Assembly: GCA_020466095.1 (NCBI GenBank) | Contig: CM035807.1 | Span: 57,298,605 to 57,362,604, forward strand | Reading direction: 5' to 3' | From: Chlorops oryzae | Taxonomy: Eukaryota > Arthropoda > Insecta > Diptera > Chloropidae | Length of the DNA: 64,000 nt | Shown here: in pieces, positions 626 to 25,199 of the stretch | How the letters are laid out: each line of letters opens with the position of its first letter | Numbering within the stretch: the stretch's first letter is position 1 | The notes under the pieces: generated by a model | The model's input: only the letters and a program-made list of their open reading frames with translations | The model's database searches: none | What the model was told of the DNA's origin: nothing | Program-made: the position numbers and the translations under genes

Positions 626-742
626 TTTTCCTTTATCCGGGTTTTATTGTCGTGAACAAGTTTTTTGCTCAAGGGCTTATGATGAAATAAATAAAGTGTG
701 CTACAAATAAATGCTTTATATTAAGTGTGCTTTACAATTTAA

Positions 743-1880
743 CCAGTCATCGGTTTGTATGTAATGACACGATCATGTATAAGAACACAATATGCCGAAG
801 TATTTGGTTTAATGTTTTCAAGAGTTTTGAACATTATGCGAATATCGAGAGCACCTGTTTTAATTTCTTCATTTTGATGCGACGTGTCAACAACAATTAT
901 TAGCCATTCCTTAAACTTTTTGCAGCATAAAAGTGAAACCTTGCATACATATCATATAAGAAAGCATATCGATTACGAAACAAATTTAAATTTAGGTCAT
1001 CGTATGGATATGAAACAGAGTCTAAATGTACGTTTAAATCGGTTAAGCTACAGTTTGTAAACTTTTCTCCATTCTCGAAAGCGATAAGAATAAAACGAGG
1101 ACGCTCACTTTGTGTTCCTACTTTTATGTTCCATGTATGATTTGTACTTTGAGGTAGCTCTGGATAAAAGTAACATTCCCAACTACGAAATGATATAGGT
1201 AGAGGAATATCCTCTTTAATAGTTGTATAGATTTTCAATTTGGCTGCATCGGATAATTGAATTTGGCGAACCTTCCAAGCAACATTTAAGAGCTTCAAGT
1301 TAATGTTATCCTTTTCACTCTCTTCCGTATTATAGACAGACTTATCATTTGATCTAGAACGTAGCAAGATAATCTCATGTTTTGAATTTATCATAATTTT
1401 ATCAAAGTCTTCGGCAAAGCCCATCAACATTTTTAGTGGTACGCAAAAATTGTAATAGCCATTATTTATAGCTGGTTTAATATTTTCTTCCGGAGACCAA
1501 CCGGCATTTTCCAACATTGTACTTGTATTTTTGTTTAAGGATACAAGATTTTTTAAAGTAGAAGTTTGACCCAAGTACCGTGTGCGATCAATTTCCACAC
1601 CATTCATTTCATAACGTATTTCCTCAAATAGATATGCAATACAATTATTTCGAAATTAAACTCCTTTGGGTTCTGCATTTTCGGAACCAATTGAAACAAC
1701 CCCCTCAATGTACAGTAAGCTTTCATGAGGTAGAACGTAGAGATCTTGATTTTGAATTGCTATCCGTATCTCATCATTGTTGTTAAAGGATTGAAAATAT
1801 GGTTGATATGTGTGAAATTCTTTCTTTGTAATAGACTCATCGAAGACGGGTTGTTCTCCACCTCTCAAGATATTATTCAC
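743..1880 (-). pseudogene. Polinton major capsid protein (double jelly-roll), broken in three frames
   Basis: Three consecutive minus-strand frames make up one capsid gene: an N-terminal piece (1880-1656), a long central piece (1607-900) and a C-terminal piece in a further frame to about 743. The N-terminal piece has the ILRGGEQPVFDESI opening and the DEIRIAIQNQDLYVLPHESLLYIEG block that I associate with insect Polinton capsids. The protein would form the pseudohexameric capsid of a Polinton virion. The start is odd: position 1880 reads GTG, directly overlapping the TGA of the upstream 58-aa gene, which suggests a former ATGA overlap whose ATG was lost. At least two frameshifts (near 1630-1650 and near 905) make it non-functional. 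Confidence 0.75.
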
Positions 1881-2053
1881 TTCTTTTTAATGTAAGTAAA
1901 TCCCAATGATTTTAAAAAGTTTCTATTTTTAATACTTAATGGCTTTTTTATAAGAAATTTTTCTTTGCTTATTCTTGATGCGTTATGTACAAGAGATGAA
2001 GATAAACTGATAGAAGAACCATCGTGCACACCATTTTTATTAAATATAATCAT
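1877..2053 (-). CDS. small Polinton protein between minor and major capsid genes
   Basis: This 58-aa minus-strand frame runs from ATG 2053 to TGA 1877. It is rich in Ser and Lys and ends with a RNFLKSLGFTYIKKK segment, a short basic tail of a kind I recall from small Polinton genes in this position. Its stop overlaps the presumptive start of the major capsid gene, as expected for a compact viral operon, and it begins just downstream of the minor capsid gene. The function is unknown; a small virion or cement component would be guesswork. The uninterrupted frame and conserved position support it as a genuine gene. Confidence 0.5.
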   Translation of the reverse strand: MIIFNKNGVHDGSSISLSSSLVHNASRISKEKFLIKKPLSIKNRNFLKSLGFTYIKKK

Positions 2054-2065: not shown

Positions 2066-2761
2066 TTATTCAACAGGTTTCAAGTGGAGTCTTAGTGTAA
2101 TTGTTTCTCCTTGAAAATTTAATAATACACCGTTTTCGTTAACAAGTCTAACTGCAATTGAACCTATCTCTTTGACGATCACAGGCAAATAGATAACATT
2201 ATTTGGAATTATGTCTATTTTATATCCCGCTTCAACATTTATAGAGAATTCATTTAAGGTGTGTGCCAAGGTACTGTTAACATATGAACCGCCCACAATG
2301 TTGCACTCAATACGCACAACATTGTTTTGGGTAATCATTAAACTTGTATCCGATATGTTTGTTTCATAAGGTTTAAGTTGACGCTTTGAAAATCCCAAAA
2401 GCGATCCAATGCTTCTCTCTCTATCAAAATAAACTATATCTTTTTCAGAGAAGATTTCAGCTTTTAATGTATTATTATTGGCCTTTATACTTAATGTGGC
2501 ACCAGCTGCTGCTGCTTCTTGATTTTCGTATGCGTCTAAAATATATTTCACAATATCATCGAACTCATATGACCCGATAGGAAGCTCGATTACATGCTTG
2601 CCCATGTGAAAACAGTTATTTTTTTCATCAATATACGGTATTGAGTAATATGTATGAAAATCAATCAGTCCACAAACATATTCCTTTTTAAGCTCTATGG
2701 GAGGAAAATAATTTTCTCTAAGAATTGAGGAATTTCCAGTCAAAGCCAATGTTCTTGACAT
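2066..2761 (-). CDS. Polinton minor capsid (penton-like, single jelly-roll) protein
   Basis: From the ATG at 2761 the frame gives about 231 aa without interruption; an in-frame extension to 2797 begins with TTG and is not needed. The sequence is beta-rich, with ELPIGSYEFDDIVKYI near residue 60 and a SIGSLLGFSKRQL segment near residue 115. These are typical of the minor capsid (vertex) protein that accompanies the major capsid protein in Polintons. It lies between the integrase and the major capsid gene on the same strand, the usual capsid module. Unlike its neighbour it shows no break, so its protein could still be intact even though the element is not. The assignment rests on order and remembered family pattern. 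Confidence 0.65.
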   Translation of the reverse strand: MSRTLALTGNSSILRENYFPPIELKKEYVCGLIDFHTYYSIPYIDEKNNCFHMGKHVIELPIGSYEFDDIVKYILDAYENQEAAAAGATLSIKANNNTLKAEIFSEKDIVYFDRERSIGSLLGFSKRQLKPYETNISDTSLMITQNNVVRIECNIVGGSYVNSTLAHTLNEFSINVEAGYKIDIIPNNVIYLPVIVKEIGSIAVRLVNENGVLLNFQGETITLRLHLKPVE

Positions 2762-2831
2762 CTTGAGGGGTTGAGATTGTAAAGTAAACTGAATCAATCA
2801 AAGAAATAAAACTTATTTTTATAAATTTTTT

Positions 2832-3749
2832 TCATAGTATATCATATTTATTTATCCAAGAGTTGTGACTATCGGAAAACCCCAACCATTTTACATACAC
2901 TTTATCACCCCGCTTCTTTATAACTTTCTCAACTAAATACATGTGAGGAAAACGTGATTTTTGCAATTCTTGTGTATAGAAAGCACCCTTAATTACATTT
3001 CCCTGATAGTCTTCTAGAATATAAGTACATGGATTGGTATTTTGAATCTTATTTATCTTGAAGATTTCCGTTGTCCAATTGGGTGTGTAACCTTTCTCAA
3101 AAACATGTTTATATTTGCTTATTCGAACGTAATCGTTTACATGAAATTTGGGCTTATTATAGACTTTCAGACGGTTGTAAATCGTTTTTAGAATTGTTGC
3201 TGCATTTAAAGAATTCACTTTACCGGGTGCAATTTTTATTGTTCTGTGCACTTTTCCATTGTACTCTTTTTTCAATTTTTGATATTCATCAATCCAATTG
3301 TAAGAACCGCGATTACTGAAGCCCTTCCACATCATATTTTTCAAAGTGCGATTAAATCGTTCAACTATCGATGCTTTCATTACACTATAGGTAGAGTAGT
3401 GATTTATTTTGTTTTGTTTCATTAAAAGTTGAAACTCTTTATTGAAGAATTCCTTCCCATCATCTGTTTGCAAATTTTTAGGTTTTCGACCGCATTCAAA
3501 TTCACTTTTCATTGCTTTGGTAACATCAGGAGCTGTTTTCGACTTTATCGCAACAGTCCAGGCATATTTGGAGAAAGTGTCAATGATTGTGAGTAGGTAG
3601 CGATACACTTTGTTGAATGTAGAGTAATTACCCATTTCCACTAAATCAGCTTGCCAAAGATCATCAATATCTTTGGTTATAACAGCTCTTCGTCTAAAAT
3701 TTCGTCGTGCCTGTCGATGGAGCTCCTCAACTATTTGATATTGACTCAT
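2832..3749 (-). CDS. Polinton integrase (retroviral-type DDE core with C-terminal chromodomain)
   Basis: This 305-aa frame runs from ATG 3749. The rve-type core shows the catalytic triad: D in DLWQADL (about residue 34), D in LQTDDGKEF (about 97) and E in ASIVERFNRTLK (about 130). After an SH3-like stretch (NDYVRISKYKHVF) the C-terminus is a chromodomain, VEKVIKKRGDKVYVKWLGF. The protein cuts and joins element ends into the chromosome; the chromodomain may read histone marks. The frame is open throughout, but the region before the core is only about 30 aa, shorter than I expect, so the N-terminal zinc-binding part may be missing. Its start overlaps the preceding gene's stop by 4 nt (ATGA). 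Confidence 0.85.
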   Translation of the reverse strand: MSQYQIVEELHRQARRNFRRRAVITKDIDDLWQADLVEMGNYSTFNKVYRYLLTIIDTFSKYAWTVAIKSKTAPDVTKAMKSEFECGRKPKNLQTDDGKEFFNKEFQLLMKQNKINHYSTYSVMKASIVERFNRTLKNMMWKGFSNRGSYNWIDEYQKLKKEYNGKVHRTIKIAPGKVNSLNAATILKTIYNRLKVYNKPKFHVNDYVRISKYKHVFEKGYTPNWTTEIFKINKIQNTNPCTYILEDYQGNVIKGAFYTQELQKSRFPHMYLVEKVIKKRGDKVYVKWLGFSDSHNSWINKYDIL

Positions 3750-4174
3750 CTTGAAGATGGTATTGTGTGGTTTTGGTTTGGTTTTTGAATAATGTTTTGA
3801 TTAGAAATCATTGAAAACAAAACATTTTCCGTACCTTCTAAACGCTCAACATATTCCATATACACCTTAAACCTCTCATCAATATCGCGTTCAATAGATT
3901 TAATTTTTTCATAAAAGGTTTCAATTTCTTTATTACGGTGACTTTCATCAGCTTTAATTGAATCCTGGAATTCAGTGCGATACGCATCAAGACTTAGAAT
4001 TACCAAATTTTGCGTTGCAGCGTCTCCCTTTACTATTGGATCTTTAAGATTTCTGATGCGTTTCAAATGAGCGTTGAAGCTGTGATCTCTGCTAGAGCTT
4101 AGAGTCAATTCCGTATTAAAACTTTTTGACTTGGATGTATTGTTATTATATCGACCGAATTTGTCCACGCTCAT
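3746..4174 (-). CDS. conserved Polinton virion-associated protein, coiled-coil rich
   Basis: The frame from ATG 4174 gives 142 aa; the open frame extends upstream to 4204 but begins with TTG. It opens with SVDKFGRYNNN, has RIRNLKDP and KGDAATQNL segments in the middle, and continues into a charged helical stretch (KEIETFYEKIKSIERDIDERF) likely to form a coiled coil. This layout recalls the collar or fibre-like proteins of insect Polintons, but that is a family impression only. It overlaps the integrase start by 4 nt and is apparently intact. Confidence 0.45.
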   Translation of the reverse strand: MSVDKFGRYNNNTSKSKSFNTELTLSSSRDHSFNAHLKRIRNLKDPIVKGDAATQNLVILSLDAYRTEFQDSIKADESHRNKEIETFYEKIKSIERDIDERFKVYMEYVERLEGTENVLFSMISNQNIIQKPNQNHTIPSSR

Positions 4175-4196
4175 CTTTTTATTTTTCGTCGAGTTT

Positions 4197-5239
4197 TCAT
4201 TCAATTATGTCAGCTTCTTTAAGCTCTTCAATAATTGAAATAATTTCGTTGTTATGATTATTATGTCCTGCAGATTGTGATGCTATGAGTAGTCGGAAAC
4301 GATTAACCAATTCCTTTGGGTCATCCCAATATATAATATATAGTTGATTGGATTCAAATTTAAATTCATTAAACCAAATCCTTCTTTCTTCACATCTAAG
4401 TTCGAGTTTGACCCTTTACTCTCCACATCTTTGATTAAAAATTGAATAATGTTTGGATACTTGGATCCTTTGTCTCCATTGACTTGACCACAAGATGTAT
4501 AGCCACGTCTATAGGCATTAGTTTTCAATAGAATTTTCTTATACAATTTTAAATCCGGTTCAGTATATTCGATAGGATTTTTTGTGAACATTAACTGAAA
4601 AAGTCCTGGTGTCATTGTAAATGTTTCGTCACCAATTTTAACTTGATTAGAACTTTTGAATGATATTTTCGAGTCTCCAAACATCAATTGCTTTTCCGAA
4701 TTGTAATTCAATCCAAATATTCTATCTAGACTGTTTTGCTTTTCTAGTAGATCAAAATTCGGTTCATTTAACAAATTACTGACTTCTCCTTCTTCTTCTT
4801 CCATGGCTTTAATAGTGTTTGATTTATTATCATCATCATCGTCATCATCATTGCTATAAAATTGATCATTGCTTTCTTCATCATCATCATCATCATAATC
4901 TTGAACAGAATCAACACTATTAGACCATTTTGGTGTACTAGTTTCAATCTTTGGTAGTTTATTAATGTTTTTCCTCCTTCTTTCTTTTTTCATCGGTCTT
5001 TTGAATAAATTTTTTTTGTTGAAAGTTGAAATATTTGCTTTAGAGTTTTTAGCCAATTCATTTACTATTTCACTTTTAACTTTAGTTTCTGTAAGCAATT
5101 CCTTAATTGGAGCTGTGATTGGTAAAAAAGTTTTTTCCAGACTTTCTGCTGCGCTTAAATCATTAATTTTAATGGCTTTGAACTTATCCCTCAAAACTTT
5201 TTTCGTCTGAATAATTTTGGAAAGCAATTCATCATCCAT
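4197..5239 (-). pseudogene. large conserved Polinton protein (DUF8207-like), frameshifted near the C-terminus
   Basis: ATG 5239 opens a 318-aa frame ending at 4283. It has an N-terminal helical region, a basic patch (RPMKKERRRKN), two acidic poly-Asp runs near residues 115-140, then a globular part with TMTPGLFQLMFTKNP and KTNAYRRGYTSCGQ. The latter is the signature I associate with the DUF8207 family of insect Polintons; the function is not known to me. After about 4345 the correct continuation (a WDDPKELVNRFRLL-type segment through EELKEADIIE) is in another frame and ends at TGA 4197, so one indel breaks the gene. It sits upstream of the 142-aa gene in the same orientation. Confidence 0.6.
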
Positions 5240-5578: not shown

Positions 5579-6241
5579 TTACAGTTGTAATAATGCATTG
5601 ACCATATGTAAAACTGTATATATGTCGTTTGGAAGAACATATTTGCTACTGCATCGTGGATATACTATTGCTTTAAGGCGTAGAATAAGTCGTGATATTT
5701 GCAATATTGCATTCAACTCATCTTGATGAATAGTATGATTGTTGGTATGACGTAAGCATATTAATGGACAATTAGGCGACCAGCGTAAATGTTCTGCTAG
5801 AGGATCATCATTTATTTTCCATTTACAAATTTCCACTATGCAAAAGTAACATTTTGCAATATCTTCACTGCCAGTGTAAAACATTCCAAATTGTGCAAGC
5901 CTTCTTGTATCCATCCATCCCAAAGGCCAATTTTCGAAAGTTTTTAGGCGCTCGCTCTCATAGCACATTCGATCGGTCATATCCAAAGGTTCAACATTCT
6001 TTACACTCTGGATTGATGGGGGCCAAAACGAGTCTGTTCCTCGATGAACAGGTCTGCTTATTGTTGTTGCTGTTGAACAGATCTGCTTATTAAACAGGTC
6101 TGTTCCATAATGAACAGGGCTGTTTGCTGTCGATGAAGAAGAAGAAGGATGACTATTGAACTGATCAGATTGTTGCTTGACTCCAAACATTGTTGTTGAA
6201 CTGCTTGATCTGTTTTTGAAACTGAATATTTTGTTGTGCAT
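5579..6241 (-). CDS. BIR-domain (inhibitor-of-apoptosis type) protein encoded by the Polinton
   Basis: The 220-aa frame from ATG 6241 has a Ser/Thr-rich N-terminal third with repeated PVHxGTD motifs, then one BIR domain at about residues 92-165. The domain shows the ERLKTFENWP opening, a MDTRRLAQFGMFYTG helix and the zinc ligands CYFC with EHLRWSPNC (CX2C...HX6C). BIR domains bind caspases or IAP antagonists, so the protein may delay apoptosis of infected cells, as IAPs do in insect DNA viruses; that role is inference. No RING domain is present, so ubiquitin-ligase activity is not expected. It lies between the DUF8207-like and packaging ATPase genes on the same strand and appears intact. Confidence 0.8.
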   Translation of the reverse strand: MHNKIFSFKNRSSSSTTMFGVKQQSDQFNSHPSSSSSTANSPVHYGTDLFNKQICSTATTISRPVHRGTDSFWPPSIQSVKNVEPLDMTDRMCYESERLKTFENWPLGWMDTRRLAQFGMFYTGSEDIAKCYFCIVEICKWKINDDPLAEHLRWSPNCPLICLRHTNNHTIHQDELNAILQISRLILRLKAIVYPRCSSKYVLPNDIYTVLHMVNALLQL

Positions 6242-6252
6242 ACACTTTGCTT

Positions 6253-6689
6253 TTATAGATGAATAAATATGTTGAACCCTTTTCTAAATCGTCCACTATT
6301 TAATGAATCATCTTTGCTAATGACGAGAAACCCATATTTATCCTTCCAACATTCAGTACAAATTTTTAAAAAATCTTGAAATGACATATCAGTACCAACA
6401 TGATCATTATAAATATGCCTTATGTTCGTTTCATCTTTTTTAAACATGATAATTAAGTTTGCATTGTCACGAATCAGATGTTTTGGTATTCGAGTATAAG
6501 TTTGGCATAGATAAAAGCTATCAATATTATTGTGCCGACAATTTCGTATATTGTTCTGTTTTTCACACGCAACATCATCGAAGATAAAAATAGAATCTGA
6601 TTTTGCTTTTTCTGGAGCTAGAACTTCTTCATTATCTGAGAAGGTGTAAAAGCCCATTCCTTTTGTTTGTTTTATAAGTTGTTAAAGAT
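6253..6689 (-). pseudogene. packaging ATPase (FtsK/A32 type), C-terminal part, cut by the Gypsy insertion
   Basis: This is the distal half of the Polinton genome-packaging ATPase. Walker B appears as SIFIFDDVACEKQ, followed by RHNNIDSFYLCQTYTRIPKHLIRDNAN and a C-terminal RFRKGFNIFI tail. The 134-aa frame begins at ATG 6657, but that is only an internal Met: the family sequence continues upstream in frame, through a TAA at 6682-6684, to the Gypsy 5' LTR at 6690. It resumes beyond the Gypsy at 17044. The break is therefore an insertion plus a nonsense codon. Confidence 0.8.
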
Positions 6690-7400
6690 TGTTGCATGAA
6701 TATGACACATAAGCGCCTTAGCGCCCTAAATCGCCTTAGTGCCTTAAATCTCATTTCAAATACCGACCCTGCACGGTTAATTTACGTTACGGCACTGTAT
6801 GCCTGAAAGCATAAGTAACAAGACACTTCGAACAATGCACTTATAGCATTGAACGGAACGAAGGCCGAAACATCAAATGCAAGCCAACGGAATGTAACCA
6901 AACACTTCGAGCAATGCACTTATAGCATTGAACGGAACGAAGGCCGAAACATCAAACGCAGGCAACTAAACACATGCAATGCATGCGCCGATATTGTGTT
7001 ATGACAGAATACCAATATCGAATCAATTGGGCATAACCCAAATTGGTCATTTGACACTTCTCAGATGTCAGCCAAATTCTGTGCGGCATTTCTCCTCTTT
7101 TGAATCAGCATTTATAAATACATAAGATATATACATAACATTTATAGATACCTAACATTTACATATACATAACATTTATATATACATAACATTTCTCCTC
7201 TCTTGGAATAAGTATAAAAGAAATTAGAATGTTTAAGAAAACAACAATTGGAGTTTCAACGTCAAAGGTTTGGACGACTGATTCTGGCTTCGGCTGAATA
7301 CGGTCCTACCTTAAAAATAAAAGACTACCAAACAAATAAAGTCTTCATTATTTTTTTGGAATATGTTGATCATCCCTTCATAAGAAGGAATAACTTTACA
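6690..7400 (+). repeat. Gypsy 5' LTR
   Basis: This 711-bp LTR has TGT...ACA ends. It contains a 79-bp imperfect tandem duplication (units starting near 6823 and 6902, each with CACTTCGARCAATGCAC), a TATAAAA box at 7213-7219 and an AATAAA at 7335-7340, so promoter and polyadenylation signals are recognisable. A short array of ATATACATAACATTT-like units precedes the TATA box. Confidence 0.92.
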
Positions 7401-7533
7401 TGGCGATCCTAGCCACGGACAAAAACTGGAAATAACAAGGAGATCTGGCGTTCCAGAAATAACAAGGAGATCTGGCATTCCACAATAAGAAGGAGATCTG
7501 GCGTTCCAGCAATAACAAGGAGATCTGGCACTG
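7401..7533 (+). promoter_or_regulatory. Gypsy primer-binding site and leader with four 27-28-bp repeats
   Basis: TGGCGATCCTAGCC directly follows the LTR terminal ACA and is in the primer-binding-site position; TGGCG is the usual start of Ty3 primer sites, but I cannot name the tRNA. The leader then contains four near-identical units of the form AATAACAAGGAGATCTGGC (about 27-28 bp, roughly 7427-7530). They end just before the first ATG at 7534. Such a leader array could influence packaging or translation, which is speculative. Confidence 0.6.
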
Positions 7534-7857
7534 ATGACCACACTTAAAGAAGCACTAGCAGACCCAACGGCTGGCCCAAGACCGTTAACAATTGCCGAAT
7601 ATCAGGCCAGGCAGGAAGCAACCAAGAGGGCAAAACAACAAAAGCAACACCAAGAAGAAAAACTCACTTCGATCCCGAAGGTCCGTCCACCTAAGAGGCG
7701 TGGTGGAAAAATCACGAAATTAATACACCGACGAGCTTTTCTCCGAACGGAGTTGAGACGAAAAACACTGGACTTGGAAGGAATTAAATCAATGGCCACT
7801 GAACTGACCCAAATCGAAAAGAAGCTGAAGGACAGGAAAGGGAAAAGTGCTTATTAA
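7534..7857 (+). CDS. small basic leader ORF of the Gypsy element
   Basis: An intact 107-aa frame from ATG 7534 encodes a very basic, helical protein (RPPKRRGGKITKLIHRRAF, then ELRRKTLDLEGIKSM and a KKLKDRKGK tail). It starts directly after the leader repeat array and precedes gag. I do not recognise the family. It could be a nucleic-acid-binding accessory protein or the N-terminal part of gag expressed separately. It has no stops despite decay elsewhere in the element, a mild argument that it was under selection until recently. Confidence 0.45.
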   Translation: MTTLKEALADPTAGPRPLTIAEYQARQEATKRAKQQKQHQEEKLTSIPKVRPPKRRGGKITKLIHRRAFLRTELRRKTLDLEGIKSMATELTQIEKKLKDRKGKSAY

Positions 7858-8139
7858 ACTGCACTACAACAACAACTAACTATTGCGATTCTCGCAAGTT
7901 ACAGTGCTTATTAAGCTGCACTACGTCAACCTTGCTATTGCGATTTTCGCAAGCAAAATTTTATAAAAATTGTTAGATTTTTTTTTAATAGAGAGAGAGA
8001 GAGAAATTTTTTTTAATAAAATACCTTATATTAGTATAATTTTGAATTTTTTTGCACCTTTGAAAAAAAAAAATATAAAAATAAATAAAATCTTCAATTT
8101 CAAAAAAATTGCAACATGTGAGGACATGAATCCAAAATC

Positions 8140-8335
8140 TCAGACCCTAACGCCAACGTAATTAACGAAATTGAGACAAAAGTAGAGACCTGCAATATTA
8201 GCTCAATTGAAATTTTATTGATCGTTCTAGTAGTTAGCGCAATCATTGATTTTGCGCTTAAAATCTACAAACAACATAATAAAAATCTAAAAAAAAGATA
8301 TTTAAGCAAAGCTAATGATCTAGATAAAATTTAAA
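8140..8335 (+). CDS. small membrane-segment ORF in the Gypsy 5' region
   Basis: An open frame starting around 8140 (no clean ATG) encodes IETKVETCNISS, a hydrophobic helix (IEILLIVLVVSAIIDFAL) and a basic tail ending ANDLDKI before a TAA at about 8333. The pattern is a single membrane span of about 19 residues followed by positive charges. Short membrane ORFs occur in the leaders of some insect Ty3 elements, but I cannot match it to a named one. Spacing to gag is only a few bases. A start codon may have been lost to a frameshift near 8135. Confidence 0.3.
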
Positions 8336-8337
8336 TC

Positions 8338-8729
8338 ATGAAAGTTTTGATTTTGATATTCTTTACTGAACTGACATCTACCCCAAATGGAAAATTAACT
8401 TTTACCATACCGATACCAAATGGCACGGCAAATCTACCTCAGTTTATACAATCAAATGTAGATAGATTTGATAATATCATATTTTCACAAGGAATAGAAG
8501 TGATAGAGTCATACGGGACTATCAGAGCCTCAAGACACACCCCCCAACGCCACAGAGCTTAAAGCATACAGACTTAGATTTCACTCACCAATGTCAAGCC
8601 CCGAAAAATGGGAAATAATACAAAAAAAGTTCAATGACTCCATAGATGAATTTAATAGATCGTACAAATGTCTAAATAAGACACAAATTCCAACAGCCAA
8701 AACGCAAACAAAACATTTTAATAATCTAA
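8338..8729 (+). pseudogene. Gypsy gag, N-terminal segment up to the Harbinger insertion
   Basis: ATG 8338 starts a frame of 74 codons (NGKLTFTIPIPNGTANLPQF). Past a frameshift near 8530 the neighbouring frame continues as a Gag-like helical region (LKAYRLRFHSPMSSPEKWEIIQ) up to the Harbinger target site TAA at 8727-8729. On the far side (11442 onward) the helical sequence resumes in a compatible way, so this is one gag gene split by an insertion. Confidence 0.5.
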
Positions 8730-8974
8730 TATCATGTTTCCACATAGGGGATTAACTGAATTATCGGGGTTAACGAGTTAATCCCAGATTATGCATGGGA
8801 TTACCCATACAAATATTTTGACTTTAATCCTTTCGCCGATGTGGGATTAAAAAGTAATCTCCTTAAAAAAGCATGGTTGATACAAAATGAAGTACGAAAA
8901 GTACGGAAAATATCAACTGTTCTGTCAAATAAAAAAAATAACGGATATCATAACAAACCAAATCAAAATAAACG

Positions 8975-9820
8975 ATGGAGCCTTCATGTTGTAAGTACAT
9001 ATTTCCAAATATTTCAATTCAAATAAAAAAAAGACTTTCATTATTTTAGCAAAACGCAAAAAGAGAACAGCCTGGAGCGAATCGGCTGAAGCCCAGCTTG
9101 TCGAATTGTGGGAGGAAAAAAATGAAGAGCTTCGTGGTGCTCGCAAAAATAACCACATTTTTGCAGAGTTGGAGCAGGAAATGGAGACAAAAGGCTTCAA
9201 TTTTTCAGCAGAGGAAATTAAAGTGAAGCTTAAAAACTTCCGCAGATTGTATAGGTAAATTACAAAAATTAGGTCATTGGACTTCATCTACAAATTTAGT
9301 ATGTTTACAGCGAAGAGAGAAAAAAGATTGGGCCCTCTGGTGGTACACCGTCAAATTGGAGGTGGTATGAAGATGTAAACCGTATTTTGGGTTCGTCCAA
9401 ACAATTTAATTTGGAAAGTGTTATGGAAGAAAGTGCAAGTAAGTTGAACGTATACAGGCCTATTTGCATTTATTTATATTTCAATATGTATGTAAATATA
9501 TGAAGTAATTAATTTCAGCATTCGAACCGCAGTCTCCTCCCCAATACGATGCATTTAATTGCGTCGAATTTTTAGACGGCTATTCGGACATGACGCTGAG
9601 CGTATCCAATACGTCTTCGGAACCTGCAAAAAAAAAAAAAAAAGTTAATGTGCAGGAAGAGATGTTGGAGGAAATAAAAGAGTCCAATAGGATGGTTAAG
9701 GAAGAAATGCGACAATCCATGGAGTTGATGCAGAGGAATGCTGCCACACTCGAAAAGATGGCAAATGAAAATGAAGATTTTCACAAAAAACTGCTGAGTG
9801 CATTATTGGAAAAAAAATAA
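8975..9820 (+). CDS. Harbinger Myb/MADF-like DNA-binding accessory protein (4 exons, 216 aa)
   Basis: Exons at 8975-8990, 9050-9254, 9311-9438 and 9519-9820 join in frame (651 nt) with GT-AG introns of 59, 56 and 80 nt. The N-terminal half is a trihelix/Myb-like domain (RTAWSESAEAQLVELWEE, then FNFSAEEIKVKLKNFRRLY and a GTPSNWRWYEDVN helix). The C-terminal half has a lysine run and a coiled-coil helix (ESNRMVKEEMRQSMELMQRN). In PIF/Harbinger elements this partner binds subterminal sites and carries the transposase into the nucleus; that role is known for the family and inferred here. Its 3' end overlaps the convergent transposase gene by 125 nt. Confidence 0.85.
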
Positions 9821-11248
9821 ATAAAATAAAAAACATACACAAATGAAATGCTATGGCTTTTCTTATTTCCTCAGCTGAAGCATTCCCATCTCCACACAGA
9901 TTGTTGTAGTCCGGTTGGGGCCTCTCGGTGGGAATTAAATCAGAGAGCCATTTTTCTGAGATTCTGCTGTTTTGGCTGTTGAAAAAGTTATGCAGCACGC
10001 AACAACATTTTATTATGCTGTTAACTTTAGTTACGTGGTTATCCAACCCCTTGCCAAGTCTTCGAAAACGCGCCTTTAGCTGTCCAAATGCGTTTTCAAC
10101 GACAATTCTACTCTTTGACAGGTGGTAATTGAATCTTTTCTGCTCGGGAGTCGAACTGGTAGAAAAAGGGTATGGCTTCATTAATACCTCCGAAAATGTA
10201 AATGCGGAGTCCCCAATAACGACCACTGGGGCCATAATTTCTCCAAACTGTCTGGTGTTGCTTTTGAGAAGAGATGAATTATCTAGAAATTTTTTTAAGC
10301 TTGACATATTATATATTTTCGAATCATGGCAACGACCTGGACAACCAACGTTAATATACGAAAACCTGCATCTGAAAATTTATTATTGCAATTAAGTTTT
10401 AAAAAAAAAAAAAATTTGCATTCATTTAGTACCTGTAGTCAACTAAAGCGAAAAGCACCACAGAATTCCACCCCTTATAATTGTGGTAGTCCACAGCTTC
10501 GTCTGAAGGTGCCATAACTTCAATATGACATCCATCTGAAAAATATCCCGACGTATTAAATTTGAAAAAAGTTATAATTCTAAGCAAATGACCGATTGCA
10601 CCAAAGCATTGTGGGAAGCCCATTGCCTCGAATCCTTTGACGTTCTCTTCAATTTTTTCTTGCGTCAAAAAATTTTGTGGTAAATATTCAGGTGCAAGTA
10701 TCCGCCAAGTTTCCGTGCAGAACTCCAGCAATATCTTGCACACAATTGATTTTGAGACTCCAAATAAGCGACCCACTGTCCGATATTCAGATGATGAGCC
10801 CAGGGTGTACAAGGCAATTGCAATCCGTTTTTCCAGCGGTATGCTTTGGCGAAAATACGTATTTTGCTTCTCCAAACTCTTAAGCTTTTCCACCAATATT
10901 TGGAAGCATTTTCGGTCCGCTCTGAAGCTGTTTTTAAAAAATAGATCGGAGTTTTTCGGCACGTCTAACTCCCAGAAAGATCCAAAACGTTCCTAAAAGT
11001 TGAATAAACTTTCAATATACAAAAATAAATTGAGGTTTTTTATATATTACCAGTGTCCAAAGCCTTCGTGGTCTATAGACTTTGCCAGCATAAAATGCAG
11101 CTATTACCATTTCGTTACGCTGAATAATCATTTTCAGTTTTCTCATTCGACGGCTTAGTTCAGCGTTTTGCTCGGCAATATGGAGAAATTGCAGTTGCAT
11201 CGCTTCCTCCTGCGCAATAACAGCACAAACAATTTGCTTAAAATCCAT
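9696..11248 (-). CDS. Harbinger DDE transposase (HARBI1-type nuclease, 4 exons, about 458 aa)
   Basis: Exons on the minus strand are 11248-11051, 10992-10593, 10535-10433 and 10371-9696, joined by GT-AG introns of 58, 57 and 61 nt. The total of 1377 nt is a whole number of codons. Splicing is essential: the first catalytic Asp (GAIDG) is created across the second intron, at 10593/10535. The other catalytic residues are D in VVIGDSAF and E in IVVENAFG. An N-terminal helical segment (QLQFLHIAEQNAELSRRMRK) precedes the DDE_Tnp_4 fold. The C-terminus runs past the usual family end into sequence antisense to the partner gene, so the true stop could be earlier by alternative processing. No stop or frameshift was found. 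Confidence 0.87.
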
Positions 11249-11441
11249 TTTTATATCTTATTTGCACTTTTTTAATTTTCACTTTCAATTTGCTGGTTTT
11301 TCTTCGCTTTTCTGTCTCGCTTCTATGCTAATCAGCTGATTGACTAATTAATCCCTACACCGAAAGTGAAAACGACTGAGATTAACTAACGGGATTAACG
11401 TTAATCCCTATAGTTAATCCCTATGTGGAAACATGATATAA

Positions 11442-12475
11442 CACTTCAACACAATACTATCTCGGCCTTGCTTAAAACATATATTCCATTACTAACTGAA
11501 AGTCATTAAACTGAATTCAAAAATTCTTTTCAAAATTTAAAAGACAAGTTCTCAATATTATTGAAAAAATTTGAAATCAAAGATCAAGTACCACAAGATT
11601 TAACGACAATTTTTAATTTAAAATTTACTGAAGATTCCGACTCAGATTCAGAATCAATAAAATCAGAAAAAATACCTTCAATTCAAGAATTTCTCAATAA
11701 TGCTAGTAAGCTTATCCCAGATTTCGATGGCAAACCCGAGAACTTGCGAAGTTTTCTGGATGCAATCGATCTGGTCGAACTAATAAAAGGAGAACACGAA
11801 AGAGTAGCAGTTACACTAATAAAAACAAAATTGAAAGGCACAGCAAGAAATCTTGTCGATACAGAATCAACTATAGCACAAATAGTGAAAAAACTTAAAT
11901 TGTCAGTAAAAGGGGAGTCTATTGACGTTATCACAGCAAAACTCCTCAACACCAAACAACAAAATAAAAATGCCACGACATTTTGTAACGAAATTGAAGA
12001 CTTAACAAAATCTTTACAAAATGCATACATTTCTGACGGATTGAACCCTGAACATGCAAATAAATATTCAACCTCAATTGCTGTTAAAGCATTAACTACA
12101 AATGCTAGTAATGATAGAGTAAAAATGATAATGGAATCGGGTAATTTCGGCAATCTGAATGAAGCAGTTGCAAAATTTGTCAACAGTTGCACCGCGGCAA
12201 CTGAATCAAGATCGGTATTTAACATCAATAACCGAGGAAATTTTTCCCGAAGGGGAAATTTTTCAAATAATAGAAATAGGTACCGGGGACGTGGTGGCTA
12301 TACACGGTATCACCAACAGCGCAACACTAATTATTCAAATAATAGAAATTACAACCACTACAATCGCGGCCGTGGACGCGGAGCTAGTTCTGGCAATGTC
12401 CGAGCTATCGAAGCAAATCCGGGAAACGAGTCAGCTCCCCAGAATGCCCAACTGGGGACATTAACTCAGCAATAA
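11442..12475 (+). pseudogene. Gypsy gag, main part, with arginine/glycine-rich C-terminus
   Basis: The frame continues from the Harbinger junction; one TGA at about 11510 is followed by a 304-codon open stretch to TAA 12475. It has an acidic segment (TEDSDSDSESIKSEK), a capsid-like helical domain (IPDFDGKPENLRSFLDAIDL to NEAVAKFVNSC) and an RG/RGG-rich, Asn/Tyr-rich tail (RYRGRGGYTRYHQQ) in place of a zinc knuckle. The tail would bind RNA. Pol follows in the -1 frame, consistent with frameshift expression. Confidence 0.75.
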
Positions 12476-12489
12476 TTAACTCAGCAATA

Positions 12490-13227
12490 CCCACAAAACT
12501 AACACAAACGCATCAAATCCTAAGCATTAATCTCAAATTCAATAACTACATAACTGTCAAAACTTCCTTTAATACATCAGCAAATATTTTTCTACTAGAC
12601 ACTGGTTCTGACATCAGCCTCATAAAACAAAACTGTATAAAAAATTCAATAATTAATCAAAATTCTTCGTTTAATTTAACTGGAATTGGAGAAGGAATAG
12701 TCACAACTTTAGGATATGTTCATGGTTCAATATTATTGAAAAATTACGATCTAGCTCATAACTTTCAAGTAGTTCAAAATGATTTTCAAATACATTGTGA
12801 CGGTATCATTGGCCTTGACTTCATAAAAAAATACAACTGCATACTTGATTACAATAATTCCAATAGTTTTCTCGTTATTAGACCAAGCTTTTCCTATACA
12901 CATGAATCTTTACAAATTTTAGATGCACCAAAACTATATTCAATAAGCCTACCTGCTCGATCTGAAGTCATACGAAAAATATATATAAAGTTCCCAGAAG
13001 ATGAATTTTTAATACCAAATCAAGAAATTTCAACAGGCATCTACATTTCCAATACAATAGTTAACAATAAAAATACCTACGTTCGCATACTAAATACTAC
13101 AAATAATAACATTTTATTAGAAAATCTTTCCATTAAAGCAGAAAGTCTTGAAAACTACCAAACAATAAAATTTAACCCTACATCAAACAATCAAGAGCGA
13201 CATAATACCATTCTTTCCAAAATATAA
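12490..13227 (+). pseudogene. Gypsy pol: aspartic protease
   Basis: The pol frame opens just past the gag stop. The protease active site is FLLDTGSDISLI (12590-12625), with a flap-like GIGEGIVTTLGYV stretch and the conserved IIGLDFIKKYN block near 12800-12830, typical of retropepsins. The frame ends at a TAA at 13225-13227, which in an intact element should be a sense codon because homology to the RT linker continues immediately. The enzyme would cleave the Gag-Pol polyprotein. Confidence 0.7.
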
Positions 13228-13974
13228 AACAACTGTCCAATTCAATTTAGAGAAAACCTTCAAAAACTTTGTTCATCATACACAGATGTCTTCGCTTTAG
13301 ACACAGGTAGTGTCACTTGCAATAACTTTTATAAACAAAAACTCAAATTAAATGATAAGAGCCCAGTTTACATCAAAAATTACAGACTACCACATACATA
13401 TAAACCTGAAATCGAACGACAAATAGATAAACTAATCAAAGATAACATTGTTGAGCCATCTGCCTCCGAATATAACAGCCCAATTCCCCTAGTACCCAAA
13501 AAGTCATTACCCGGCAATGCAGAAAAACGTTGGAGATAAGTAATCGATTATAGGCAACTTAATAAAAAATTAGTCGCCGATAAATTCCCACTACCAAGAA
13601 TCGATGACATTTTAGATCAACTAGGAAGAGCAAAATATTTTTCATGCCTAGACCTTATATCAGGTTTTCACCAAATAGAATTGCATGAAGCCTCTAGAGA
13701 CTTAACATCATTTTCAAGCCCAACAGGTTCCTACAGATTTAAAAGACTACCATATGGTTTAAAAATAGCACCAAACTCATTCCAACGAATGATGTCACTT
13801 GCATTCTCAGGCTTAGGCCCAAATAGAGCATTCGTCTATATGGATGACCTTATAGTAATAGGATGTACTGAAACCCATATGATTGAAAACCTTAAATTAA
13901 TTTTTGAAATATGCAGGAAAACTTATTTAAAATTACATCCCGATAAATGCAATTTTTTAACCATGAAGTCCTAA
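13228..13974 (+). pseudogene. Gypsy pol: reverse transcriptase, with nonsense codon, frameshift and deletion
   Basis: RT motifs are in order: IKDNIVEPSASEYNSPI, VPKKSL, VIDYRQLNKKL, FSCLDLISGFHQIEL, FKRLPYGLKIAPNSFQ and the catalytic VYMDDLIVIG (about 13836-13862). A TAA at about 13540 interrupts the palm (WR*VIDYRQ). Near 13965 the frame is lost in the thumb region: homology jumps from the DKCNF block to YPQPTNADETRRF in another frame. This implies a deletion of roughly 20-30 codons plus a frameshift. RT activity is therefore lost. Confidence 0.8.
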
Positions 13975-16052
13975 ATTACCCACAACCAACTAATGCAGAC
14001 GAAACACGTAGATTCGTAGCTTTTGTAAATTATTATAGAAGATTTATTCCGAATTTTTCATCTTACTCTATTCATTTAACACGTTTGACAAGGAAGAAAA
14101 CAGAATTCATCTGGTCAAAGGAATGCGAAAACTCATTTAATTATCTTAAAAACTCACTACTAAAGCCCCAAATATTACAATATCCAAATTTCGATAAACC
14201 ATTTTGTATAACAACCGATGCAAGTAAAATTGCATGTGGAGCAGTCTTAAGTCAGGAATATAACGGTACACAATTACCAATAGCTTTCGAATCGCGCACA
14301 TTCACAAAAGGCGAAAGTAACAAATCAGTTATTGAACAAGAGCTTACTGCCATACATTGGGCAGTCAACTTCTTTAAACCTTACATTTATGGAACTAAAT
14401 TCCTTATCAAAAGCGACCATAAGCCTTTAACATACCTATTTTCACTCAAAAATCCTTCTTCAAAACTAACACGAATGCGTCTGGATCTTGAAGAATTTGA
14501 TTTTGTTATCGAATATATAAAAGGCAAAGATAACTGTGGAGCTGACGCGTTATCACGTATTGATTTCGGGCAAATTAAACAAATAACCAACGATGCTACC
14601 CACATTAATCAAATAATAACAAGATCAAAATCAAAACCAATTTTAACAAAATCAGAAAAGCCTAACAACTCAAATGATATTTTTCAACATGTATATGAGA
14701 CATTACAGCATGCACAAATAAATAAATTGCCTTATATGAGATATGACAAAAGCGCGCAAATCTTGAAAATTTTTAAAGGAAAAATCAAACTTCTAGAAGT
14801 AAATTTAAAAGATTTAATTGTTCAAGGAAAAATCTCTCTAGAGAAATTATTTCCTAGACTTGAAAAATTAGTCGACAATTTAAACTCTAAAAAATTACGG
14901 TTATCTTTAAACGATGAACTATTTAATATAGTACGTGTACACGAATTCAAGGAAAAAGGCAACATTCATTTGAATAACATCACTATTTCACTCACACCAA
15001 TTCGCGAAACAATTAAGAGTAAAAACAGAAAACTAGAAATTCTTAACACTTTCCATAATGATCCAATCCTAGGCGGACATTGCGGAATTAATAAACTATT
15101 AACAAAAATAAAACATAACTACATTTGGCAAAACCTAAATCAAGACGTTCGAAAATTTGTTAAAAATTGCGAAAAATGCAAATTAAACAAACCAGGAAAA
15201 AACTTTAAAGAGCCGTTATTCACAACACAAACACCTGAAAAACCATTTAACAAAATTCAAATTGACACAATCGGTCCCTTACCAACCTCAATACATGGAA
15301 ACGCATATCGCATAACGATAATGTGCGAACTAACAAAATACCTAATAGCCATACCCGTTCCAGACAAAGCTGCCAAAACAATAGCTAAAGCAATAGTTCA
15401 ACATTGTATCTTAATTTATGGACCAATTAACGAAATACTTACAGACTCAGGCACCGAATATAAAAATCAAATACTTTTAGAACTTTGCAAATTACTCAAT
15501 ATAAAACAGTTAAATTCAACCCCATACCATCACCAAACACTCGGTATGGTGGAACGAAGTCATAGAACCTTTAATGAGTATATTAGGTCATACTTATCTC
15601 CTGAAAAAACCAATTGGGACGATTGGTTGAAGTATTTTGCTTATTGCTTCAACACAACACCGTCCTCAACTCATGGCTATACACCATTCGAATTAGTTTA
15701 CGGCAAAACACCTAGACCGTTTAACTTTCTAAATGGAACAACTGATCCTGTCTATAATTTCGATAATTACGTCAAAGAATTTAAATTTAGGTTGCAAGAG
15801 GCCCAAAAGCGAGACTTTAAATTAATCGAAAATGCCAAGATTCAATCAAAAACAAACTATGACAAAAAGGCAATACCTCAAAATATTCAAGTCAAAGATA
15901 AAATCTACCTCCGTGACGAATCCAGTCACAAATTGGAAAATGTTTTCAAAGGCCCATATGAAGTTACTGAAATTGATAATAGAGGAAATTGCAAAATAAA
16001 AATAGGCAATAAATTTGCCATTGTACATAAAAATAGATTAAAATTACAATAA
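13975..16052 (+). pseudogene. Gypsy pol: RNase H and integrase (open frame)
   Basis: About 690 uninterrupted codons encode the RT connection (RRFVAFVNYYRRFIPNF) and RNase H (ITTDASKIACGAVLSQ, EQELTAIHWAV, KSDHKPLTYLF, CGADALSRI). The integrase follows, with an HHCC zinc finger (GGHCGINKLL...CEKCKLNK near 15075-15190) and catalytic D in IQIDTIGPL, D in LTDSGTEY and E in MVERSHRTFNEY. The C-terminus has a GPYEVTEID SH3-like part. The segment is intact in itself but separated from RT by a frameshift. It ends at TAA 16052 with no env after it. Confidence 0.82.
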
Positions 16053-16332
16053 AAATTTATTACTGTTAAACTGATGCGCATCATCTTAATAAATAAATAA
16101 TTAGTTTAATATTTCAATTAATAAATTTACCTCAATATATGAAAATTTCAAAATATTACTTCATTAGATTTATCAATTTAAATTAATAAATGAATTATAA
16201 ATACATCTTAAAAAAAAAAAAACAAATATTTTAATTTTACATTTATAAGATAAATACTTTTTACTTTATACCTTAACATTATTAAATTATGAAAAATCTC
16301 TATTCTAAAGATTTTTCACAAAAGAGGGAAGG
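16053..16332 (+). promoter_or_regulatory. Gypsy 3' untranslated region and polypurine tract
   Basis: This AT-rich non-coding stretch has no significant frame. It ends with the purine run AAAAGAGGGAAGG (16320-16332) immediately before the 3' LTR, the expected plus-strand primer. Confidence 0.75.
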
Positions 16333-17043
16333 TGTTGCATGAATATGACACATAAGCGCCTTAGCGCCCTAAATCGCCTTAGCGCCTTAAATCTCATTTC
16401 ACATACCGACCCTGCACGGTTAATTTACGTTACGGCCCTGTATGCCTGAAAGCATAAGTAACAAGACACTTCGAACAATGCACTTATAGCATTGAACGGA
16501 ACGAAGGCCGAAACATCAAATGCAAGCCAACGGAATGTAACCAAACACTACGAGCAATGCACTTATAGCATTGAACGGAACGAAGGCCGAAACATCAAAC
16601 GCAGGCAACTAAACACATGCAATGCATGAGCCGATATTGTGTTATGACAAAATACCAATATCGAATCAATTGGGCATAACCCAAATTGGTCATTTGACAC
16701 TTCTCAGATGTCAGCCAAATTCTGTGCGGCATTTCTCCTCTTTTGAATCAGCATTTATAAATACATAAGATATATACATAACATTTATAGATACCTAACA
16801 TTTACATATACATAACATTTATATATACATAACATTTCTCCTCTCTTGGAATAAGTATAAAAGAAATTAGAATGTTTAAGAAAACAACAATTGGAGTTTC
16901 AACGTCAAAGGTTTGGACGACTGATTCTGGCTTCGGCTGAATACGGTCCTACCTTAAAAATAAAAGACTACCAAACAAATAAAGTCTTCATTATTTTTTT
17001 GGAATATGTTGATCATCCCTTCATAAGAAGGAATAACTTTACA
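16333..17043 (+). repeat. Gypsy 3' LTR
   Basis: This LTR has the same length as the 5' LTR (711 bp). I count six substitutions between them by eye, for example AGCGCC versus AGTGCC, CACTAC versus CACTTC and CATGAG versus CATGCG. The 79-bp internal duplication is present in both copies, so it predates insertion. The Polinton ATPase sequence resumes at 17044 with the AGAT duplication. Confidence 0.92.
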
Positions 17044-17219
17044 AGATATTGATATTTCGGTTGCTGCAATGACTTTGAATACAAGTATACATTTTTAAAT
17101 CTAAGACCATTGGGACTTATTGGACGTATTGTGTTTGGTAGCAATGAACTATGACGTATTTAAGACAATTTATCATTTGAAATCGTTTTTAGGTCTAAAT
17201 TTTTCAACGAAATATTCAT
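17044..17219 (-). pseudogene. packaging ATPase, N-terminal part, P-loop missing
   Basis: The minus-strand frame from ATG 17219 reads into the ATPase N-terminus with an in-frame TAA near 17160. The conserved LLPNTIR and PNGLRFKNVYLYSKSLQQPKY blocks are visible. Between these two blocks only a couple of residues remain, where the family has a Walker A P-loop of GxxGxGKT type. The nucleotide-binding loop has therefore been deleted. Sequence runs directly into the Gypsy 3' LTR and continues at 6689. Confidence 0.7.
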
Positions 17220-17365
17220 TTGTTGTCTTATGAAACGCATTTTACTCTTTTAACTAACAACAATGATATAAAAGCGATTCTTTTTATACTTTTTTGTTCA
17301 GAACGCTTTTGACCGTTGATTTGTTTGCTATACAAACAAACAAAAATTTATAAATGCTGTTATAA

Positions 17366-18098
17366 AAACTGCCAATTGAACTTCATTTACCAGGCTATCG
17401 GTTTTGTGGACCGGCAACAAAACTCGAAAAACGTTTAGCAAAAGGAGACAAGGGTATAAATATTTTGTATTCTGCATGTAGAGAACACGATATTGCCTAC
17501 TCGTAATTCAAAGACTTGCCTAATCGCCGGATTGCCGATAAGATTTTAGTTCAGAGAGCTTGGGAGAGAGTAAAAGCTCCAGATTCGAGTGTCGCAGAAA
17601 AGGCAAACGCTTGATTTGTCACAAACGCAATGAAAGCCAAACTGAAGATAGGTGGTAGTCTTCGAATAAACAATAATCGAAAACTAAAGACTGTGAAGAA
17701 CAAAAAGAAGAAATTCTGTACTCAAATATTCACTACTGCAATAAAAAATGCTACAAAAGTTTTAAAAAATGCAAAACCAATTGATATGAATGATGCTCTT
17801 CAAATTGCTGAGAAATCTTTATCATCTACTCTTAAGAGGAAAAATCGTAAAGTTCTACCTCGTGTAATCCCTGTACCAAAAGTGGGTGGATTTTTACCAT
17901 TAATACCAATTTAAGCGGATATTGCAAAACTTGGAGGAATAGTATCGGGAGGCATGTCGATTGCAAATATGATAAAAAAATATAATATCTGCAAAGGATA
18001 AAAAGCCCAAGGAACCTGTTGCCATTGGAAATGGGCTTTATTTTAAACCCTATAGAAATGGATACGGTTTCTTTCTTCATCCTTATTCAAAAAACTAA
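17366..18098 (+). pseudogene. Polinton phospholipase A2-like protein, several nonsense codons
   Basis: The plus-strand frame shows a PLA2-like calcium-loop region (YRFCGPATKLEKRL) and the catalytic His-Asp pair in SACREHDIAYS near 17480-17500, as in the PLA2 domains of Polinton and parvovirus virion proteins that breach endosomal membranes. Stops occur at about 17503 (TAA), 17611 (TGA) and 17912 (TAA). The stretch 17630-17911 alone is open and basic (NRKLKTVKNKKKKF). After a frame change the C-terminus (GNGLYFKPYRNGYGFFLHPY) ends at TAA 18096-18098. No start codon remains. The gene diverges from the ATPase across about 150 nt of AT-rich spacer. Confidence 0.75.
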
Positions 18099-18463
18099 TT
18101 AGCACTCTACCCAAAAAAGCCCTAACCGAGGTCGACCTAAGAAAATATGCCGCAAACTTGAAATCTTTCAGAGGAGTTTTTATGCGAAATACTTTACCAA
18201 GACGTCCTCATAAGATTGAATGTGGAATAATTAATCTGGATTCATCAGATGGAGATGGTACTCATTGGGTAACATATTTTAAAAATAATACTGTTAAGGA
18301 ATATTTTGATAGTTTTGGTAACCTTCCACCACCGAAAGAAGTTGTCAAATATCGCGGTGCAAATAATTTAAGATACAACTATAAACAACATCAGCAATAC
18401 AATTCATATAACTGTGGTCATTTGTGTTTAAAGTTTCTGTATTCACAATCATGCAACAATTAA
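18098..18463 (+). pseudogene. Polinton adenovirus-type cysteine protease (C5/ULP1-like), start codon lost
   Basis: An open frame of 121 codons runs to TAA 18463. The catalytic order His-Asp-Cys is seen in GTHWVTYF, YFDSFG and YNCGHLCLKF. The enzyme would mature virion proteins, as in adenoviruses. The frame is open from at least 18098, where ATT sits at the position expected for the start (TAATT where TAATG is typical). The first remaining Met is at 18158 (FMRNTLPRRP), which would remove about 20 N-terminal residues. So the coding body is intact but initiation is doubtful. It follows the PLA2-like gene without a gap. Confidence 0.75.
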
Positions 18464-21202: not shown

Positions 21203-21295
21203 CTACAAAAATAAAATTTAAAAAAAAACAAAAATAAAAATAATAATAATAATAAAAAATTTAATTAATAAAGATAAATATTTTGGGTTACCAAC
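21203..21295 (-). other. spliceosomal intron in the Polinton DNA polymerase gene
   Basis: On the minus strand the sequence CAAG|GTTGGTAACC opens the intron and TTTTTGTAG|ATTAATC closes it. Joining at these sites keeps the polymerase frame (SR then LISSQLS) across an AT-rich 93-nt segment with a low-complexity TTATTATTATT run. The alternative GTAACC donor 4 nt downstream would break the frame. Confidence 0.75.
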
Positions 21296-24073: not shown

Positions 24074-24276
24074 TTAAAGACGACACTACTTTCGAAACCG
24101 ACGCTCACGATCGATTTTTCGATAAATTTAAACTGAACTGTTTGATTTCACTTTAAAGAATGGCAACGTCAAAGGAGAAAATCTGATTTTATGCACACTT
24201 CACTTGTAAGACTGATAGCGTCAAAAGAACAAATTTTATTTTTATACCTTCACACTTTTCTTCAAACTTCCACACA

Positions 24277-24800
24277 GTTTCTCACCCACACCATACTCAC
24301 ACATATATGTACTAATTTTTCAAAACATTCAATCCCACAAATGTCCCCCTGATTGAACTGAACTTTAACTTGAAAAATTTTTGAATAAACATCCAATGAG
24401 GCAAGCTTCAACCTGTTCTGGCTAAAAAATCATGCCTTATCTTCATCTTAATGGCTTCAGTAGCGATAAGTCAACTCCAGCTCTAACCCAATGTTTACAT
24501 ATTGATCTATATATGCTCTCCTACCGCAAAGTTTCTCACCCACACCATACTCACACATATATGTACTAATTTTTCAAAACATTCAATCCCAAAAATGTCC
24601 CCCTGATTGAACTAAACTTGAACTTGAAAAATTTTTGAATAAACATCCAATGAGGCAAGCTTCAACTTGTTCTGGCTAAAAAAATCATGCCTTATCTTCA
24701 TCTCAATGACTTCAGTAGCGATAAGTCAACTCCAGCTCTAACCCAATGTTTACATATTGAACTATATATGCTCCCCTACCGCACAGTTTCTCACCCCCTC
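24277..24800. repeat. 254-bp tandem repeat, two full units
   Basis: Units beginning GTTTCTCACCCACACC start at 24277 and 24531; a third begins at 24786 and diverges after about 15 bp. The two full units are almost identical. They contain TCCCCCTGATTGAACT and CATGCCTTATCTTCATCT. No coding potential was seen. Confidence 0.8.
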
Positions 24801-24834
24801 ACCTGTTCAATGAGGCTCAATGCGAACCTTCTCA

Positions 24835-25147
24835 TATAAACCTCCAAAAATTTCCAAAGACCTAAATGTATGTCACCTCATACAAACTTCCTAAATTTCC
24901 AAAGACCTAAATGTATGTCACCTCATACAAACTTCCTAAATTTCCAAAGACCTAAATGTATGTCATCTCATATAAACCTCCAAAAATTTCCAAAGACCTA
25001 AACGTATGTCATCTCATACAAACTTCCTAAATTTCCAAAGACCTAAATGTATGTCATCTCATATAAACCAACCAAAACTTTCTAGGTCTTAAATGTGCGT
25101 TATCTCATACAAATGAACCAAAATTTTCTAGATCTTCAATGTGCGTC
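24835..25147. repeat. 45-bp tandem repeat array, about seven units
   Basis: The repeat core TTTCCAAAGACCTAAATG recurs every 44-45 bp (for example at 24851, 24896 and 24941), joined by CTCATACAAACTTCC or CTCATATAAACCTCC variants. The last two units are diverged (TTTCTAGGTCTTAAATG). It directly precedes the truncated Gypsy pol and may derive from retrotransposon LTR or UTR sequence. Confidence 0.75.
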
Positions 25148-25199
25148 TTTTTCCGATTTTCCATACGAAAAAAGTTGCACATCCAGAACGAACATATCC

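Follow-up and report, generated by a model that had tools for sequence, protein, structure and literature searches.

The window analysed here, a 64,000-nucleotide stretch of the Chlorops oryzae genome, contains a Polinton in which a gene for a BIR protein lies within the virus-like gene block. The element was identified as a Polinton by its rve integrase, A32-type packaging ATPase, double jelly-roll (DJR) capsid gene, terminal inverted repeats (TIRs) and target-site duplication, and it also holds putative remnants of a protease and of PolB. It extends from -1653 to 25207 (26,861 bp; the base before window base 1 is counted as 0, and negative positions are outside the window), and a Gypsy insertion makes up 9.9 kb of this length. 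The TIRs are ~1 kb long and 96.5% identical across 951 bp, and the termini, AGTAGGGGGG, are flanked on either side by a perfect 6-bp target-site duplication, GACGTG. The features are as follows.

Roughly -1653 to -552, ahead of the window's first base: left TIR.
742..1883, minus strand: DJR major capsid gene, interrupted, open only over 900-1607.
2066..2797, minus strand: orf243, conserved, without a Pfam family in this copy; candidate minor capsid gene.
2832..3749, minus strand: rve integrase (Pfam), with a chromodomain match under the cutoff.
3746..4204, minus strand: orf152.
4283..5239, minus strand: orf318, acidic, immediately downstream of the BIR gene.
5579..6241, minus strand: gene for the BIR protein, 220 aa, without RING (ORF call, Pfam and genome matches).
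5579..5746, minus strand: C-terminal tail peculiar to the Polinton (residues 166-220), standing where DIAP1 has BIR2 and RING; two helices predicted with low confidence.
5759..5950, minus strand: BIR domain of DIAP1-BIR1 type, residues 98-161, zinc ligands and groove residues retained.
6023..6121, minus strand: traces of N-terminal 13-aa repeats, residues 41-73 (PVHYGTDLF / RPVHRGTDSF).
6242..6252, minus strand: 11-nt spacer from the ATPase stop to the BIR start.
6253..6657, minus strand: packaging ATPase (A32 type), C-terminal part, below the Pfam cutoff in the window.
6690..16632, plus strand: Gypsy LTR element inside the ATPase gene, its LTRs 98% identical.
16998..17240, minus strand: packaging ATPase, N-terminal part, cut off by the Gypsy insertion.
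17630..17914, plus strand: remnant of a gene with a Phospholip_A2_4 sibling, equated by position and by shared residues read by eye.
18158..18463, plus strand: adenovirus-type protease (Pfam 20.2 bits, just under the cutoff of 21.3).
18678..21231, minus strand: PolB, degraded (DNA_pol_B_2 19.1 bits, under the cutoff of 25.8).
24197..25207, minus strand: right TIR, ending in ...CCCCCCTACT, followed by GACGTG.

The first-pass annotation had placed the BIR gene in a virus-like block between packaging and virion genes, and this is indeed the arrangement that we observed, with the ATPase upstream and the DJR capsid gene further downstream on the same strand. The capsid gene scored 267.7 bits (PF21738) and the integrase 57.7 bits (PF00665; cutoff 32.6), while the A32-type ATPase reached 37.1 bits in the sibling copy L034 (cutoff 22.8) and 19.0 bits, under that cutoff, in the window fragment. 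Because the Gypsy element sits in the ATPase gene and the capsid gene is interrupted, the window copy is dead as a unit. It had also been remarked that the BIR gene stays open beside a broken capsid gene; both halves of this observation are correct, but a single open copy is no evidence of selection. The PolB fragment at 20302-21231 (minus strand) also matches Endonuclease_7 (PF02945, 3.1e-05), and a DDE_Tnp_4 transposase is nested within the Gypsy element at 9696-10962.

The 220-aa ORF matched the Pfam BIR family (PF00653) over residues 98-161 (E 8.8e-19; 68.3 bits, cutoff 22.9), with CCHC zinc ligands at C131, C134, H151 and C158, bearing out the original description of 5579-6241 as a single-BIR protein with a full set of zinc ligands. 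It has the BIR fold with the CCHC zinc site of an IAP (type II BIR protein), and all four ligands are present in each of six Polinton BIRs compared. Its best matches among solved structures were BIR proteins, and the Drosophila DIAP1 BIR1 chains aligned at ~1e-28 over residues 82-180, a stretch longer than the BIR domain alone. In a structure model the BIR is the confident part, with pLDDT ~88-94 at residues 91-150, the full 220-aa protein reaching a pLDDT of only 60.2 and a pTM of 0.46. The protein thus shares with BIR1 of fly DIAP1 (thread) the domain, the zinc ligands, the groove residues and homology for ~20 residues beyond the BIR. However, unlike DIAP1 orthologues, which have BIR1, BIR2 and a RING, it has one BIR and neither BIR2 nor RING (one protein inspected in each of three lineages), together with new N-terminal repeats and a new tail. 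The lineage-2 loci (L031-L048, except L043 and L045) have 2-8 copies, by pattern count, of the 13-aa N-terminal repeat INRPVSNxTDLFP; in lineage 1, most copies show one recognisable 13-aa repeat, and by eye lineage 3 (L051) has a different N-terminal repeat of 13-14 aa. The window ORF stops 6 residues earlier than the ORF in 24 of the 30 best-matching loci.

A genome search with the BIR protein returned 150 scored matches out of 259 candidates. Most of them closely resemble the window copy, to which the full-length stop-free ones are 92-98% identical, and a second group stands at ~49-57% identity. The 30 best loci, among them the window copy itself, all have the final part of the ATPase directly upstream (in L019 only 16 residues of it), and orf318 was inside the 1.5-kb flank in 28. 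Another 18 loci, comprising 17 diverged ones and L043, which is a decayed member of the window family, all (18/18) have the order ATPase-BIR-orf318; where the stretch reaches far enough and is uninterrupted, orf152, the integrase, orf243 and the capsid gene come next. Because these loci had been picked by their BIR, we performed a second census based on the ATPase (150 scored matches of 270 candidates, BIR positions being those of the matches listed). A same-strand BIR match lay downstream at a distance of 1.5 kb or less in 127 of the 150 copies and 1.5-20 kb away in 7, and 16 had no BIR among the matches listed. Seven of these 16 were examined; all seven hold pieces of the BIR gene, mostly decayed or interrupted, with the BIR domain itself nearly or wholly gone in L054 and L056, so that no site free of the BIR gene was seen among these seven apparent exceptions. 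The 11-nt spacing of the window was common to 77 of the 98 copies with an ATPase identity of at least 90% and an adjoining BIR, and three diverged lineages hold the gene at the same position.

These data bear on the alternative that a host BIR fragment was inserted late and by chance into one Polinton copy and has no function. Many single copies are indeed broken, and just 51 of the 150 BIR matches span residues 1-220 stop-free (a hand count that excludes partially matching open copies of lineage 2). However, the gene adjoins the ATPase in 127/150 copies that had been picked by the ATPase and occurs in three lineages, between which the BIR genes show a dS of ~1 or more, which makes this explanation exceedingly improbable. 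A later independent insertion, the scenario under which the first-pass reading was to be given up, is ruled out by the ATPase census (127/150, and the 7/7 exceptions) and by the shared position in the three lineages. Within this Polinton clade, the BIR gene belongs to the standard gene set.

We further compared the coding changes of the BIR gene with those of its neighbours. Between lineages, where dS is near saturation, the median dN/dS of the BIR gene was 0.33 for the window copy versus lineage 2 (16 pairs) and 0.20 for lineage 2 versus L045 (16 pairs), and the value for the window copy versus L045 was 0.27 (one pair). The corresponding values were 0.07-0.08 for the ATPase, 0.07-0.09 for the integrase, 0.27-0.31 for orf318 and 0.23 for orf243. 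The dN/dS among copies, proposed at the outset as a check, falls between 0.20 and 0.33 when taken between lineages, and these ratios show the BIR gene to be constrained between lineages. Within lineage 2, the dN/dS was 0.46 for the BIR gene versus 0.15 for the ATPase. Since the BIR gene changes faster than the ATPase and the integrase but is constrained, it evolves like an interaction gene and not like an enzyme. The values within the window family (0.25-0.28) were rejected as evidence of selection, because the loci had been chosen on BIR score and the ATPase of the same loci was close to neutral (median-based 0.97, pooled 0.82).

The origin of the domain was addressed with two trees: one of 76 BIR domains, with a panel of 35 proteins drawn from protein searches, and one of 39 BIR1 regions, restricted to BIR1, with 33 panel proteins and the host's own DIAP1; both comprise proteins other than viral IAPs and DIAP2. 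The Polinton BIRs form one clade with support of 100/100 in both, and in the 76-domain tree this clade groups with BIR1 of dipteran DIAP1, apart from BIR2 (74/85). On this phylogenetic evidence, the Polinton BIRs go back to a single gain of BIR1 from a fly DIAP1 gene. The initial interpretation is thereby supported in part: the Polinton BIRs do fall in the DIAP1 BIR1 clade, as expected if a host-type apoptosis inhibitor gene had been captured, and it is from such a gene that the Polinton gene comes. The host's own DIAP1, a 526-aa open frame with two BIRs and a RING, pairs weakly with that of Teleopsis in the 39-region tree, and its BIR1 region is 44-56% identical to three Polinton BIRs. The AU test keeps all five placements (sister to host DIAP1, p 0.51; outside Schizophora, p 0.35), the Polinton BIR branch is long and the deeper nodes are weakly supported; the origin is therefore named only as "a fly DIAP1". 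The capture is probably not recent, because the lineages split after it and are separated by the dS given above.

In a protein search with the BIR protein, the best match was a fly DIAP1-like protein (60% identity over 40% of the query), and the only other match was a snail survivin (41%). A wider search, with 120 of 225 matches listed, had fly DIAP1s as its named top matches; among those listed, query coverage reaches 51% at most and none has the architecture of the Polinton protein. Three of the 120 have no RING family among their Pfam matches (P0062, P0084 and P0121), and on reading they were rejected as BIR-only relatives, P0062 and P0121 looking like DIAP1 paralogues and P0084 having three BIRs. 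Calyptrate DIAP1-like paralogues (P0001 of Cochliomyia, P0044 and P0052 of Calliphora) are among the nearest annotated sequences in the matches listed; unlike the Polinton protein, each still has its RING and both BIRs (P0044 and P0052, by eye and in the panel of the 76-domain tree). They are short proteins with changed BIR1 residues, and P0001 shares the stretch ICKW with the Polinton BIR.

Insect DNA viruses are well known to have captured IAPs. A fold search of BFVD, a set of viral proteins only, agrees with this, its top named matches being IAPs from DNA viruses of insects and crustaceans. The IAPs of baculoviruses, nudiviruses and entomopoxviruses resemble the present case as host-type BIR genes of similar fold in insect DNA viruses; they differ in that the carrier here is a Polinton, and the likeness is one of fold only. 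It could accordingly be proposed that the Polinton inherited its BIR gene from such a viral IAP and not from a fly, as these viruses carry IAPs and their folds match. We regard this as improbable, since the best sequence matches are fly DIAP1 or DIAP1-like proteins (the trees being of non-viral IAPs) and the top identity among the 50 fold matches listed is 40%. Scans of viral contigs with capsid, BIR and DIAP1 queries returned no relative; this absence is uninformative, because neither a viral IAP nor a capsid of an insect Polinton came up in the same scans.

The groove of the domain is informative about what the protein might bind. The positions W90, D94, E99 and W103 (DIAP1 numbering), which we take to be groove positions by equivalence with XIAP-BIR3, are unchanged in 6/6 Polinton BIRs. 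At the position of DIAP1 Gly88, 30 of the 33 BIR1 domains in the panel have Gly, and all six Polinton BIRs have Cys or Ser, a substitution that may alter binding. In thread alleles, changes at Gly88 affect the killing induced by Reaper or Hid. The portion of PMC3972657 consulted describes the BIR1 groove of DIAP1 as binding the exposed motif of effector caspases as well as the motifs of Reaper, Hid and Grim. Because of this binding, a RING-less BIR1 could act either by sparing DIAP1 or by blocking effector caspases.

Taken together, we propose, with a probability of roughly 0.6, that this standard Polinton gene derives from BIR1 of a fly DIAP1, has been kept in at least three lineages, binds IAP-binding motifs and delays apoptosis. 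The BIR1 module was captured once and has stayed between the packaging ATPase and orf318; BIR2 and RING were lost or never present, and a repeat array at the N-terminus and a tail with predicted helices were added. The groove would then bind the motifs of Reaper/Hid/Grim-like antagonists, serving as a decoy that spares cellular DIAP1, or alternatively bind and block processed effector caspases, and in either case apoptosis would be delayed while the Polinton replicates and packages. The gene, where it lies, where it came from, its retained residues and its constraint between lineages are demonstrated; the partners, the anti-apoptotic effect and its timing are what we infer from the domain. Several points weigh against this reading. 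Without a RING, the protein is, by its predicted domain content, incapable of ubiquitinating as DIAP1 does, the Gly88 equivalent is substituted, and the gene changes faster than the ATPase and the integrase, with the higher dN/dS of 0.46 within lineage 2.

Two other functions have to be weighed. The BIR may owe its retention to a structural function or to packaging, for example as a virion component or an assembly partner of the ATPase, with caspase and antagonist binding lost. The 11-nt distance to the ATPase in the same direction, the variable number of N-terminal repeats, the new tail, the missing RING and the substituted Gly88 equivalent would all fit such a role. However, the four groove positions, which a purely structural protein would not need, are intact in 6/6 Polinton BIRs, and we consider this role unlikely, although it is the most credible of the competing explanations. 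It is considerably harder to believe that the gene acts in non-apoptotic immunity, such as IMD signalling via the caspase Dredd. BIR proteins of flies do work in immunity too, DIAP2 being the case given in the consulted part of PMC3972657, but the nearest among the matches listed are of DIAP1 type (the trees cover BIR proteins other than DIAP2). The binding of IAP-binding motifs thus remains our preferred reading, and it suggests that Polintons carrying a BIR may, like many insect viruses, prevent the suicide of the cell.

It has long been asked whether the Polintons of animals are transposons or viruses that pass through an extracellular stage. The window element shares with Polinton/Maverick elements and adintoviruses the TIRs, the 6-bp target-site duplication, the integrase, the A32 ATPase, the DJR capsid and, putatively, the protease and PolB remnants, and its clade differs from them in carrying a fixed BIR gene. 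Adintoviruses are defined, in the part of PMC11071296 consulted, by a PolB with an N-terminal OTU-like domain, and PolB is broken in the window. The terms "apoptosis" and "iap" have a count of 0 in the main text of two adintovirus papers (PMC11071296, PMC8363768), and no description of a Polinton with a BIR came up in the literature searched, which did not extend to the founding adintovirus paper. Apoptosis inhibition in arthropod viruses has likewise been proposed for the NS3-like zinc-finger proteins of bidnaviruses and densoviruses, according to the part of PMC4061559 consulted; they differ in being unrelated to the IAP family and in not being BIR proteins. The Polinton BIR is a further variant on the known theme of viral IAP capture.

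A bolder reading, which we offer only tentatively, is that a fly Polinton clade took a host-derived apoptosis inhibitor into the core gene set of its packaging block, with a change of tuning at the Gly88 equivalent and a variable repeat array, because it passes through an infectious stage that host cells counter by apoptosis. If so, endogenous Polintons would be a germline record of a cell-death arms race. A host-derived death inhibitor kept across lineages in the packaging block, in elements that have capsid and parvovirus-type phospholipase genes as well, would answer the needs of a virus and not those of a pure transposon, and the transposon-or-virus question can now be reduced to a binding and cell-death assay on one small protein.

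The phospholipase is best seen in the sibling L034, where a 277-aa gene (L034:5609-6439, plus strand) matches Phospholip_A2_4 (PF08398, 7.4e-17) of the parvovirus VP1 type. The phospholipase of parvovirus VP1 has a role in entry, and its presence in this Polinton lineage, as predicted from the domain match, also points to a virion stage. Elsewhere in the window, 47428-50690 holds a possible Helitron-type helicase by eye, within which the ORF at 48571-49704 is without a Pfam match, and a long ORF for a non-LTR reverse transcriptase (RVT_1) lies at 55456-59043.
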